64,000 bases of DNA from Nitrospirota bacterium (lineage in GTDB: Bacteria > Nitrospirota > Thermodesulfovibrionia > Thermodesulfovibrionales > UBA1546): NCBI GenBank assembly GCA_016195565.1, contig JACPZK010000031.1, forward strand, positions 62,001-126,000, written 5' to 3'. Position numbers and translations under genes: made by a program. Shown here in pieces: positions 8,443-11,769 of this stretch. The notes beneath the pieces are model-generated. The model ran no database searches and was not told the DNA's origin. It saw only the letters and a list, made by a program, of their open reading frames with translations. Every line of letters starts with the position of its first letter. Position 1 is the first letter of the stretch.

Positions 8443-9510
8443 ATGAAGGCATTGATATTAAGCGGCGGAAAGGGGACAAGGCTCAGGCCTCTGACCTATA
8501 CAACAGCCAAGCAGCTTGTTCCTGTAGCAAATACGCCCATACTGGGATATGTTCTCAGGCATATTAAAGATGCGGGAATAAAAGATATAGGCATAATTAT
8601 TTCACCTGAAACAGGAAATGAGGTAAAGCAGTATGTAAAGGATGGGAAGGGGTGGGGTGTTAATGTAACTTATATCTTGCAGGCAGAGCCTGCAGGGCTT
8701 GCACATGCGGTTAAGACTGCTAAGAATTTTTTGAAAAAGGACAATTTTATAATGTATCTTGGTGATAACCTTCTGTCACATGGGGTCAAAGATGCGGTAA
8801 GGGAATTTGAAAGACAGCCCATTGATGCCGCAATATTTCTTAAGGAAGTGGATAATCCAAAACAATTTGGCGTGGCAAAACTTGATAGGAAGGGCAATAT
8901 AGTAAAGCTGGTAGAGAAACCTAAAAATCCGCCATCGAATCTTGCGCTTGTCGGCGTCTATATATTTACTGCAATGATACATGACGCTATTGATAAGATA
9001 AAACCATCGTTCAGGGGCGAGCTTGAAATAACGGATGCGATACAAAGGCTTATAAGCATGGGCGGCAGGGTAAAAAGTGAGATATTGAAAGGCTGGTGGC
9101 TTGATACAGGCAAAAAAGACGATATTCTTCAGGCCAATACAATAGTTCTTGATGAATATATAAAACGGCAGATTAACGGTATGGTTGACAGCAAGAGTCA
9201 GATACTTGGAAGAGTAACAGTGGAAAAAGGGGCGTCTGTGGTGAATAGCACTATCAGGGGGCCTGTTGTAATAGGCAAGAACTCTGAGATTAAGAATTCA
9301 TTCATAGGCCCGTTTACAAGCATTGGCAGCAATGTTACTGTAACAGATTCTTCCATTGAACACTCTGTAATTCTCAGCGACGCATTTCTTTCAGGTGTTG
9401 AAAGGCTTGAAGACAGTCTTATAGGGAAAAACACAAAAATTATAAGGAATGCGGTTCGTCATAGAGCACTGCGCCTGATGATAGGGGATGACTCAACAGT
9501 TGAGGTTTAA
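8443..9510 (+). CDS. rmlA: Glucose-1-phosphate thymidylyltransferase (long, LbH-containing type)
   Basis: The first step of dTDP-sugar synthesis: Glc-1-P plus dTTP to dTDP-glucose. The N-terminal nucleotidyltransferase signature LSGGKGTRLRPLT is at residues 6-18, with YLGDNLL and the EKPKNPPSN loop downstream. From about residue 245 a left-handed beta-helix (hexapeptide-like repeats such as IRGPVVIGKNSEIKNS) extends the protein to 355 residues, as in the long archaeal/actinobacterial-type RmlA rather than the 290-residue enteric form. rmlC, rmlB and rmlD follow, completing the pathway to dTDP-L-rhamnose. GGAG lies about 8 nt before the ATG. Confidence 0.92.
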   Translation: MKALILSGGKGTRLRPLTYTTAKQLVPVANTPILGYVLRHIKDAGIKDIGIIISPETGNEVKQYVKDGKGWGVNVTYILQAEPAGLAHAVKTAKNFLKKDNFIMYLGDNLLSHGVKDAVREFERQPIDAAIFLKEVDNPKQFGVAKLDRKGNIVKLVEKPKNPPSNLALVGVYIFTAMIHDAIDKIKPSFRGELEITDAIQRLISMGGRVKSEILKGWWLDTGKKDDILQANTIVLDEYIKRQINGMVDSKSQILGRVTVEKGASVVNSTIRGPVVIGKNSEIKNSFIGPFTSIGSNVTVTDSSIEHSVILSDAFLSGVERLEDSLIGKNTKIIRNAVRHRALRLMIGDDSTVEV

Positions 9511-9526
9511 CTCATATGATTACTGA

Positions 9527-9653
9527 AATAGAGAAGGGAACAATCTTTTCGCTCATTCTCGGTCTTCGACCTCCGAGGGCTTTTGCCTCTTTATTTATTA
9601 ACTGTATGAATATCGGCAAAAGAAACCGCTCAAAGACAGTTCCCTTCTCTATT
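9527..9653 (+). repeat. 127-nt structured element, copy 1 (upstream of rmlC)
   Basis: A perfect 15-bp inverted repeat (9527-9541 with 9639-9653) closes the element. Inside are a CTCGG...CCGAG hairpin, a GAGGGC-TTTT-GCCTC hairpin and a CGGCAAAAGAAACCG hairpin. The interior matches the copy at 11642-11769 closely (TTTCGCTCATTCTCG, CTTTTGCCTC, GAATATCGGCAAAA, CCGCTCAAAGA), but the closing arms have a different sequence. The right arm ends 11 nt before the rmlC ATG, so it may act as a leader RNA or be an inserted element. Confidence 0.8.
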
Positions 9654-9664
9654 AGAGGTCTGAT

Positions 9665-10147
9665 ATGTTTAAAACCAGCGACATAGAAGGCATTGTTATA
9701 AAAAAAATGGAAACTTACGCTGATAATCGCGGGTGGCTGGGAGAATTATTCAGAAAAGACGATCCAATTCTCAGCTTAATCCAAGGCAATTCAATGTTTT
9801 ATCCTGCAATGAGCTACATATCTATCACTAATCCTGATATTGTGAGAGGGCCCCATGAACACAGAGAGCAGACAGACTATTTCTGTTTCTTAGGCAAATT
9901 CAAGCTCTATTTGTGGGATAACAGAAAGGATTCACCTACTCATAAAAATAAAAAGGTGGTGGAGAATGCAGACAGGCTTATAGTAGTTGTGCCGCCGGGA
10001 GTTGTCCATGCATATAAAAATACAGGGAAAGAGGACGCAATTATACTGAATTTCCCTGACAGGCTTTATGGAGGATGGAACAAGGAAGAAAAGGTCGATG
10101 AAATCAGATATGAAGATGATGCTGAGAGTCAGTTTAAGATTGAGTAA
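9665..10147 (+). CDS. rmlC: dTDP-4-dehydrorhamnose 3,5-epimerase-family cupin
   Basis: This 160-residue cupin has the family start (IEGIVIKKMETYADNRGWLGELF) interrupted only by normal variation, and RGPHEHREQTDYF places Arg61 and catalytic His64 where RmlC enzymes have them. It is shorter than the usual roughly 180 residues, lacking part of the C-terminal helix. It would epimerise dTDP-4-keto-6-deoxyglucose at C3 and C5. Its position between rmlA and rmlB/rmlD supports the call. GAGGT precedes the ATG just after the structured element. A related sugar 3,5- or 3-epimerase activity is possible. Confidence 0.85.
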   Translation: MFKTSDIEGIVIKKMETYADNRGWLGELFRKDDPILSLIQGNSMFYPAMSYISITNPDIVRGPHEHREQTDYFCFLGKFKLYLWDNRKDSPTHKNKKVVENADRLIVVVPPGVVHAYKNTGKEDAIILNFPDRLYGGWNKEEKVDEIRYEDDAESQFKIE

Positions 10148-10223
10148 GCTGTTGACTTGGACAATGCAGACATTGCTCAAAAATTTATGGGTCTTCGTGT
10201 AACCGAGCGGGTAAAAAATATTA

Positions 10224-10253
10224 GTCATTCTCCGGCTTGACCGGAGAATCCAG
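10224..10253 (-). repeat. Palindromic repeat GTCATTCTCC...GAATCCAG, copy 2 (left of GIY-YIG gene)
   Basis: A perfect 9-bp stem (10227-10235 with 10241-10249) and a 5-nt loop lie inside GTCATT/AATCCAG borders. It has the same family consensus as 5893-5924 and 10549-10578 but the opposite orientation to both. With the copy at 10549 it brackets the GIY-YIG gene as inverted repeats. Confidence 0.8.
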
Positions 10254-10259
10254 ATTTAT

Positions 10260-10577
10260 ATGGAAAAGATTTATTATGTTTACATATTGGCGAGTCGGCA
10301 AAATGGCACTTTGTATATTGGAGTAACCTCTGATTTGATAAAGCGTATATGGGAGCATAAAAATAAGTTAGTGGAAGGGTTTACTGAAAAATATGATGTA
10401 GATAAGCTTGTCTATTATGAACAGTTTAATGACGCAGAATATGCTATTAGGAGAGAGAAAAGATTGAAAAAATACAATCGCAAATGGAAAATGGATATTA
10501 TTGAAAAGTTAAACCCGGATTGGAAAGATCTGTATGAGGAGTTAATATCTGGATTCCCCGATCGAGTCGGGGAATGA
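10260..10577 (+). CDS. GIY-YIG single-domain endonuclease (YhbQ/UPF0213-like)
   Basis: The 105-residue protein begins EKIYYVYILASRQNGTLYIG, which carries the YVY and YIG elements, followed by the conserved Arg/His region SDLIKRIWEHKNK and EKRLKKYNRKWKMDII. Such proteins are stand-alone nuclease domains of unknown cellular role. Its last ten codons (ISGFPDRVGE) are encoded by a palindromic repeat, and a matching inverted copy ends 6 nt before the ATG. The gene therefore looks like a cassette inserted between rmlC and rmlB. It has no glycan role I can support. Confidence 0.9.
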   Translation: MEKIYYVYILASRQNGTLYIGVTSDLIKRIWEHKNKLVEGFTEKYDVDKLVYYEQFNDAEYAIRREKRLKKYNRKWKMDIIEKLNPDWKDLYEELISGFPDRVGE

Positions 10578-10578
10578 C
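10549..10578 (+). repeat. Palindromic repeat CTGGATTCCC...GGAATGAC, copy 3 (right of GIY-YIG gene)
   Basis: A perfect 9-bp stem (10553-10561 with 10567-10575) and a 5-nt loop overlap the GIY-YIG stop codon. Its reverse complement matches the left copy at 10224-10253 at most positions, including the borders and the loop pattern. Confidence 0.8.
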
Positions 10579-10632
10579 ATTGTTTATTATTGAAATCAAC
10601 CCACACGATTACGCGAAGAGCCAATTTAGACA

Positions 10633-11631
10633 ATGAAGATCCTTGTTACAGGTGGCTGCGGATTTATAGGTTCAAATTTTATAAGGTATATCCTGAAGAA
10701 GTATCCGGACTATGAGATTGTAAACATGGACGCCCTGACATACGCCGGAAATCTCGAAAATCTGAGAGATATAAAAAAATCTAAGAGATATCGGTTTGTG
10801 CATGGAAGGATTGAGGATAAGAACCTTATTGCAAATGCGCTCGGCGATGCAGGCTATATCGTAAACTTTGCCGCAGAGACGCATGTTGACAGGTCCATCC
10901 GGAATTCCTCCCCTTTTCTGACTACAAATATTTTAGGAACGCATACTTTGCTTGAGGCTGCAAGAACAGTTCCCATCAAAAAATTTATTCACATCTCAAC
11001 TGATGAGGTATACGGCGCCCTCGGTAATAAGGGAAAATTCACGGAGAAGGCTATGCTTGCCCCCAATTCGCCGTATTCGGCGTCTAAGGCCTCGGCTGAC
11101 CTTCTCATCCGCGCATATTATGAAACTTACAAGTTGCCCGTAGTAATTGTCAGGCCGTCAAATAATTACGGCTATTACCAATTCCCTGAGAAGTTTATTC
11201 CGCTTATGATTACGAATCTCTTGATGAAGAAACCTATTCCCATTTACGGGAAGGGAGAAAATGTGAGAGACTGGTGTTTTGTAGAGGACAGTTGCGCGGC
11301 AATTGACAATGTTATGCATAACGGCAAGGCAGGCGAAATTTATAATGCAGGCGGTAATTGTGAAGTTAAAAATATAGAGCTTGCAAAAAGCATTCTTAAG
11401 ATAATGGGGAAAAGCGAAAGGCATATTAAATTCGTTAAAGACAGGCCGGGGCATGATTACAGGTATGCTCTTGATAATTCAAAAATAAAGCGTGAATTAA
11501 AATGGCGGCCGTCTGTCACAATAGAGGCAGGCCTTGAGATGATCATAAGGTGGTATAAGGATAATGAGTGGTGGTGGAAACCGCTTAAAGAAAGGCTCAG
11601 CGCTGAGAGCAGGGGATTTTGGGAGAGATGA
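10633..11631 (+). CDS. rmlB: dTDP-glucose 4,6-dehydratase
   Basis: This 332-residue extended SDR has GGCGFIGS at residues 7-14 for NAD+ binding, MDALTYAGNLENL typical of RmlB, catalytic Thr123-Asp124-Glu125 in ISTDEVYG, and Tyr148/Lys152 in YSASK. NNYGYYQFPEKFIPL is the RmlB substrate signature. It converts dTDP-glucose to dTDP-4-keto-6-deoxyglucose for RmlC and RmlD. Length is normal. It is separated from rmlD by the second copy of the structured element. Confidence 0.96.
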   Translation: MKILVTGGCGFIGSNFIRYILKKYPDYEIVNMDALTYAGNLENLRDIKKSKRYRFVHGRIEDKNLIANALGDAGYIVNFAAETHVDRSIRNSSPFLTTNILGTHTLLEAARTVPIKKFIHISTDEVYGALGNKGKFTEKAMLAPNSPYSASKASADLLIRAYYETYKLPVVIVRPSNNYGYYQFPEKFIPLMITNLLMKKPIPIYGKGENVRDWCFVEDSCAAIDNVMHNGKAGEIYNAGGNCEVKNIELAKSILKIMGKSERHIKFVKDRPGHDYRYALDNSKIKRELKWRPSVTIEAGLEMIIRWYKDNEWWWKPLKERLSAESRGFWER

Positions 11632-11641
11632 ATAAGAATAA

Positions 11642-11769
11642 AATGCAGGAGATAACCCTTTCGCTCATTCTCGCTCTGCTCCGAGGCTTTTGCCTCATTA
11701 TTTATCCTATTAAAAGCTTGCTTGTGGAATATCGGCAAAAAAAACCGCTCAAAGATTATCTCCTGCATT
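11642..11769 (+). repeat. 128-nt structured element, copy 2 (upstream of rmlD)
   Basis: A perfect 14-bp inverted repeat (11642-11655 with 11756-11769) encloses the same core as 9527-9653: TTTCGCTCATTCTCG, a CTCG...CGAG hairpin, GAGGC-TTTT-GCCTC, GAATATCGGCAAAA and CCGCTCAAAGA. The arm sequence (AATGCAGGAGATAA) is unrelated to that of copy 1, yet still pairs perfectly. The right arm ends 13 nt before the rmlD ATG. Confidence 0.8.

Follow-up and report, generated by a model that had tools for sequence, protein, structure and literature searches.

The window analysed here is a stretch of 64,000 nucleotides from a genome of the Nitrospirota, which includes an rml operon with two elements, E1 and E2, inserted between its genes. 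Both elements were confirmed at the positions given by an earlier note on this DNA (9527–9653 and 11642–11769), with a common core and different, paired closing arms. The elements, their helices, and the neighbours of E1 are as follows:

8443–9510: rmlA (nucleotidyltransferase, Pfam), the upstream neighbour of E1
9527–9653, minus strand (the constrained strand, antisense to rml): E1, located between rmlA and rmlC, one copy of the structured mobile repeat
9527–9548, minus strand: E1 helix P1, 3' strand of the minus-strand fold (the left arm of the earlier note), pairing with 9632–9653
9558–9578, minus strand: E1 helix P2, CTCGG...CCGAG plus a variable inner hairpin, the loop of which is NGGAY in csrA-bearing relatives
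9581–9587, minus strand: E1 helix P3, one side (TTTTGCC on the plus strand), which covaries with GGCAAAA
9615–9621, minus strand: E1 helix P3, other side (GGCAAAA on the plus strand), which covaries with TTTTGCC
9632–9653, minus strand: E1 helix P1, 5' strand of the minus-strand fold (the right arm of the earlier note), the partner of 9527–9548
9665–10147: rmlC (Pfam), the downstream neighbour of E1
11642–11769, minus strand (the constrained strand, antisense to rml): E2, the same repeat, between rmlB and rmlD
11642–11655, minus strand: E2 helix P1, one side, 14 bp
11734–11740, minus strand: E2 helix P3, GGCAAAA side, with the conserved GAATATCGGCAAAA motif
11756–11769, minus strand: E2 helix P1, other side, 14 bp

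The arms of E1 (AATAGAGAAGGGAAC and GTTCCCTTCTCTATT) form a perfect helix of 15 bp, or one of 22 bp with two mismatches when extended (20 of 22 positions paired), and those of E2 (AATGCAGGAGATAA and TTATCTCCTGCATT) pair perfectly over 14 bp. The two cores are homologous (E = 2.9e-13, copy against copy), and the fold of E1 is far above chance (z = -5.9). When the 64-kb window was searched with a covariance model of 59 copies, the training sequences of which include E1 and E2 themselves, exactly these two elements were recovered, both on the minus strand (E = 6e-29 and 8e-26). The conserved CTTTTGCC, which the earlier note had read as a core hairpin, is more than a local structure, in that its TTTTGCC pairs with a distant GGCAAAA, and this pairing covaries. 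The right arms do stop 11–13 nt upstream of the start codons, as had been noted, although the arms do not include the likely ribosome sites. No match to Rfam 15 was obtained on the elements, either in the window at the gathering threshold or in five loci at E values of up to 1, which agrees with the earlier failure to recognise a named RNA family. A small ORF within the element was excluded, given that the reading frames differ among the copies.

The same operon also contains, between rmlC and rmlB, a GIY-YIG nuclease-like ORF of 105 aa (10260–10577, within the region 10215–10580), bracketed by palindromic sequences (CATTCTCCGGCTTGACCGGAGAATCCAG and CTGGATTCCCCGATCGAGTCGGGGAATGACA) that are recurrent in many genomes of the genus. 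This unit is also found in genome G006, and is missing from the other relatives examined. Together, the ORF and its palindromes look like a separate small mobile unit.

Copies beyond the rml operon

E1 and E2 are copies of an undescribed dispersed family of the Thermodesulfovibrionales (Nitrospirota), which has no specificity for rml. Like MITEs, the family is multicopy, non-coding, and dispersed through intergenic regions, and only two of the 190 placed copies (those with gene calls) overlap an ORF, the calls being derived from a simple codon score rather than a gene finder. Approximately 12 copies were found in the window's own genome by pattern and BLAST searches, and 34–52 copies with the exact core in each of the genomes G011, G014, and G015, while the covariance model matched 84 of the 150 Thermodesulfovibrionales genomes sampled, representing 50 of 77 genera. 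Among the matches listed, the records with the exact core are from the Thermodesulfovibrionales/Nitrospirota, plus one labelled as Nitrospinota. The core has no exact match in viral contigs, and carriage by phages was rejected on this basis.

Copies located away from the rml genes, for which the earlier note had proposed a search, are thus dispersed through this genome and its relatives. The control of rml translation that it had considered possible does not emerge as a specific role, given that dozens of copies are found at unrelated genes, and that close relatives with the same rml operon miss one or both copies. A leader or riboswitch specific to rml was likewise excluded by the many unrelated sites. 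In G014 and G015, the E1 gap between rmlA and rmlC is filled by a copy with the same orientation, even though the identity of rmlC is only 65%; this gap contains a different variant in G004, is element-free in G003 and G007, and is occupied by unrelated sequence in G006. G004 and G007 have no element at the E2 site. The existence of element-free sites in these relatives indicates that the copies are dispensable for the rml operon.

Variants of approximately 300 bp, or deleted forms, were observed at loci L003 (1464–1800), L015 (1260–1550), and L126 (near 2585–2705), in which the ends of the element are kept and the interior is different (ATTTGTGATAAGCAAGGTTGTCTTTCGTTTCCTGCG...), and it is one of these variants that fills the E1 position in G004. 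In several copies (L161, L188, L185, L213, L220, and L271), the P3 loop contains an insertion of another palindromic repeat (CCCCCCTYAAATCCCCCCTTRNCAAGGGGGG...), between the paired sides.

Fold, constrained strand, and arms

The consensus fold is formed by P1 (18–20 bp), a two-pair inner helix, P3 (TTTTGCC/GGCAAAA), and P2, with a conserved junction that reads GAnnGG ... CCUCGGAG ... CGAGAAUGAnnGAA. In 59 diverse copies, 95.8% of the cells are paired, in comparison with 82.2% after shuffling, covariation is 0.450 versus 0.180 when shuffled (sd 0.007) and no more than 0.103 in slid controls, and compensatory double changes are found in 24 of 31 pairs; the copies are related within and between genomes, so these counts are not independent. 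A divergent set of 81 copies, in an alignment that was fitted to the model, has a covariation of 0.793 versus 0.221. In P3, for example, the pairing changes to TTTTATC/GATAAAA in L016, while the two-pair inner helix covaries through GAGCGG/GAGCGA, GAACGG/GAGTGA, and GAGGGG/GACCGA. The suggestion that the paired arms reflect the covariation of a structured RNA is strongly supported by these data, though for the strand that is antisense to rml. The arms vary and their pairing is conserved, which is not what would be found in the ordinary repeat considered in the earlier note, with invariant arms or without any conservation of pairing.

The polarity of the fold is seen in the wobble pairs. Over the predicted pairs of the near copies, the minus strand has 326 G-U and 61 A-C combinations, and the respective counts in the 81 divergent copies are 104 and 11. 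Most arm mismatches read as A-C on the plus strand, and these become G-U on the minus strand. Wobble pairs therefore emerge only on the strand opposite the rml genes, which places the constrained strand antisense to the operon. The excess at the inner positions is independent of the direction of the neighbouring gene; in the inner part of P1, the excess of A-C on the plus strand is due partly to the conserved A/C-rich right arm, and the argument on the strand is carried by the divergent set, the helices other than P1, and the outer arm positions (55 versus 22, with sense copies providing most of these counts). The minus strand also folds better than the plus strand in 148 of 158 copies, whatever the orientation of the genes, with means of -47.8 and -41.2 kcal/mol. 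The constrained strand is kept as one folded molecule, which is most likely RNA.

The plus strand is sense in 124 of the copies located between codirectional genes and antisense in 25, with counts of 32 and 8 in G011 alone (p = 2e-4), while a bias in orientation is not evident in the small sample of csrA-bearing genomes. This prevalence of one orientation, together with the tight placement between the stop and start codons of codirectional genes and the filling of the rmlA–rmlC gap in G014 and G015 in spite of the divergence of rmlC, would suit a cis-acting hairpin in the operon mRNA (plus strand), involved in translation coupling, processing, or stability, like Correia/NEMIS or ERIC. This is nevertheless improbable, because the pairing constraint is seen on the other strand, the plus strand having far more A-C mismatches than G-U pairs and folding worse in 148 of the 158 copies, and because close relatives readily gain and lose these sites. 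At 124 of the 149 codirectional sites of the window type, the constrained strand is antisense to the operon, so an RNA of this polarity would require separate or antisense transcription.

In 88 aligned copies, positions 12–19, counted outward from the core, are Watson–Crick paired in 91–99% of cases, despite the variable columns, and position 11 is near-random in composition (C31, A23, G17, T17), yet paired in 85% of the copies. The pairing fades at positions 20–23, with no conservation beyond this point. The left arm scores 14.2 against its own right arm, and 6.9 against the right arms of other copies. The matching of flanks identified 81 pairs of orthologous copies, of which 69 share their orientation and 12 are opposed. 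At the same-orientation orthologous sites with homologous arms, 57 pair positions are double-changed and still Watson–Crick, while the differences at same-orientation sites oppose a Watson–Crick pair to a minus-strand G-U in 71 cases, to a minus-strand A-C in 12, and to another mismatch in 29, all these counts being derived from overlapping pairs, so that the events are not independent of one another. The element passes on its arms, which covary in place rather than being built anew. The near-identical copies of genome G032, described below, have nearly the same arms, which indicates that the arms move along with the element. The idea that the element builds its arms anew at each site was thus abandoned, given that recent copies have common arms and that orthologous copies co-change both arms.

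Some orthologous loci have more complex histories. Of the pairs in opposite orientation, L066 (G014) and L068 (G011) represent a single locus with the same flanks, between which an identical core is inverted in place, while the other 11 differ in both core and arms. In L172 (G014), in comparison with L113 (G011), the arms are found without the core (AAAGACAAGGCATTGCACTACAATGCCTTGTCTTTT), which may represent either the trace left by a lost core or a palindrome that is empty. The flanks of L207 (G015) and L267 (G011) are 98% identical, and their elements differ in core, arms, and orientation, as if one element had recently replaced another at the same spot.

Quasipalindrome correction, by which imperfect palindromes undergo templated repair, would need no selection on the fold, and might explain why the outer arms reach a variable distance into the flanks, and why core inversions occur. 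Such a process cannot favour G-U over A-C on one strand, however, and provides no account of the covariation of P3 or the two-pair helix, nor of the GGA loops described below, and is thus highly improbable. It is harder still to credit the insertion of the core into pre-existing palindromes, or the copying of one flank to form the other arm. The outer arm of E1, AATAGAG, can be seen in G003, at the site without an element, and L172 is a palindrome without a core, as would be expected in this case, but both examples fit the deletion of a former element equally well. Recent copies share arms, orthologous arms are kept or co-changed, and the inner arm positions are conserved, all of which weighs against this origin.

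Mobility and CsrA-like loops

Three of the copies in G032 were compared, and are 97–98% identical over approximately 200 bp. The copies in this genome end in CCCRAATCCAGCGATAA...TTATCGCTGAATCCGGG, that is, terminal inverted repeats with CCCRAATYCAGCGATAA ends, and 5-bp A/T-rich target duplications were read by eye at L542, L544, L545, L546, and L548, with none being seen, also by eye, at L540 and L541. These near-identical copies, five of them with 5-bp duplications, indicate that the element is mobile (MITE-like). The combination of terminal inverted repeats and target duplications that characterises MITEs is found only in G032, and in the window-type copies the target duplication signal is not above chance. 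No autonomous version, with an ORF in the loop, was found in the 1.8 Mb of retrieved loci, which contain only the variants of approximately 300 bp at L003 and L015, and no partner transposase emerged from the search for Y1 enzymes.

The presence of the Y1 transposase does not track the element, with copies being found without Y1 in G001 and G009, and Y1 without copies in G020, and no paired element ends were found beside the Y1 genes. A conserved tetranucleotide is absent from the foot of the hairpin, where the columns outside P1 reach no more than about 0.3 bit. A RAYT/REP reading was rejected, given the lack of both Y1/RAYT tracking and a conserved tetranucleotide. A broader option is that the folded strand is single-stranded DNA, with the minus strand being extruded as a hairpin, and then cut or joined by a structure-reading enzyme, as in integron attC or REP-like systems. 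Arms that vary in sequence and yet keep pairing, the clear recent mobility, the core inverted between its arms in L066/L068, and the biased orientation relative to genes would all be compatible with this mechanism. It is nonetheless considered unlikely, given that wobble pairs outnumber A-C mismatches by 5–9 to 1, which is more typical of RNA, that GGA loops tracking csrA point to an RNA-binding protein, and that neither the tetranucleotide nor the Y1 association is found.

The divergent subfamilies have strong inner hairpins, in which the minus-strand loops read NGGAU/C. The GGA motif is present in 110 of the 176 minus-strand hairpin loops of these subfamilies, and TCC in none, while only five of the 374 loops of the window-type copies have GGA. 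NGGAY is found at the apex of 43 of 55 distinct P2 hairpins, with stems of differing sequence (shuffled mean 6.2, maximum 15), and the spacing is 32–54 nt in all 41 elements that have two GGA loops. More than one GGA loop matching ANGGAN or ACARGGAUGU, as in RNAs of the CsrB/RsmZ type, is found in the divergent subfamilies only. The proteins CsrA and RsmA prefer GGA in hairpin loops, with an ANGGAN hexaloop and the SELEX sequence RUACARGGAUGU, and CsrA bridges sites 10–63 nt apart (PMC7652899). The GGA loops of P2 and P3, and their spacing, match these preferences, although the stems in the csrA lineages are longer than those of the SELEX ligands, which usually have four or fewer pairs (PMC7652899).

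The csrA gene was found in none of the 26 genomes tested of families f1 (the window's family, 13 genomes), f10 (nine genomes), and f13 (four genomes), and the sampled copies of these families have no GGA loops. The gene is present in G051, G078, G073, G088, and G067, where the copies carry GGA loops, and, more generally, in the tested genomes of f2, f6, and f9, and in most of those of f12. The exceptions are G032 and G025, which have csrA and no GGA loops in the copies examined, and G102, which has GGA loops (mostly UUGGAU) and no csrA found at 96% completeness. The survey of csrA was conducted after the GGA loops had been seen, and the concordance is one of families, resting on few events at that level. 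Overall, the loops of the csrA-bearing relatives look like CsrA binding sites.

Interpretation and known systems

The interpretation preferred here, with some reserve, is that of a MITE-like, non-autonomous family, folded on the minus strand, which would have CsrA sites where csrA exists, and would have lost them where the gene is absent. The arms would pass on with the element, and compensatory changes would subsequently make them different among copies, while their pairing is kept. In the CsrA lineages, the P2 and P3 loops would offer two CsrA/RsmA sites of the ANGGAN type, at a spacing (32–54 nt) that would suit a single CsrA dimer, and the RNA probably binds CsrA, either as a decoy or as a target within an mRNA. 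The homology, dispersal, fold, strand polarity, recent mobility (in one genome), GGA loops, and concordance with csrA were established computationally, whereas the transcription of the strand, its binding by CsrA, and the effect of this binding are inferred. In the csrA-free lineages, including that of the window, the GGA loops appear to have been lost, while P1, the junction, and P3 persist, and the element of the window's lineage may be a folded mobile repeat that is tolerated between operon genes. As P1 is also constrained in the csrA-free lineages, CsrA cannot be the sole cause of the fold. A possible, though doubtful, variation is a mobile family of CsrA decoys, or one that plugs genes into CsrA control, through tens of dispersed copies in the csrA-bearing Thermodesulfovibrionales, in which the sites decayed after the loss of csrA. 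In that case, and just as tentatively, the fold would stay under selection for another role.

If CsrA does bind, the element would provide this global regulator with a decoy or target that is able to transpose, and would carry CsrA sites through the genome as it moves, offering a way to build or titrate a post-transcriptional network. Repeats that are both structured and mobile tend to be regarded as neutral palindromes in the DNA. In this family, conservation of the fold extends across the order, the sequence alone is enough to identify the constrained strand, and one branch bears the motif of a global RNA regulator, largely together with its gene. The presence and absence of csrA among close families make the idea directly testable. 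Taken as a whole, the copies appear to represent a new family of mobile folded elements, probably in the form of RNA, and possibly CsrA-binding in other lineages.

A number of known systems share part of these features. Integron attC sites are bottom-strand hairpins in which the structure outlives the sequence, and which are often located just after stop codons, whereas the present elements are dispersed singly in ordinary operons, and no RYYYAAC/GTTRRRY boxes were seen, by eye, in the window-type arms. The REP/REPIN sequences with their RAYT are also numerous, dispersed intergenic palindromes, with hairpins that covary, but the family described here has a much larger fold, no conserved tetranucleotide beside the stem, and no RAYT that tracks it. 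The CsrB/CsrC and RsmX/Y/Z RNAs are similar in the GGA of their hairpin loops and the two sites at a bridging distance, found here mostly in csrA-bearing genomes. They differ from the present multicopy mobile repeat, which has only two sites per element and a long closing helix, and the Rfam models do not match the window-type copies.

The bacterial MITEs with structured transcripts, such as Chunjie, Correia/NEMIS, ERIC, and QMITE, are likewise small, non-autonomous, dispersed, intergenic, and palindromic. ERIC is also similar in size to the present element (127 bp). Some MITEs lie inside operons without disturbing them, and their recent copies have terminal inverted repeats and short target duplications, as seen here in G032. 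A review of the MITEs makes no mention of CsrA (PMC10969869), the wider literature not having been checked exhaustively. In contrast with the MITEs, it is the interior fold, and not the terminal repeat, that is conserved across the order in this family, while the terminal arms diverge under a pairing constraint, and this constraint is stranded.
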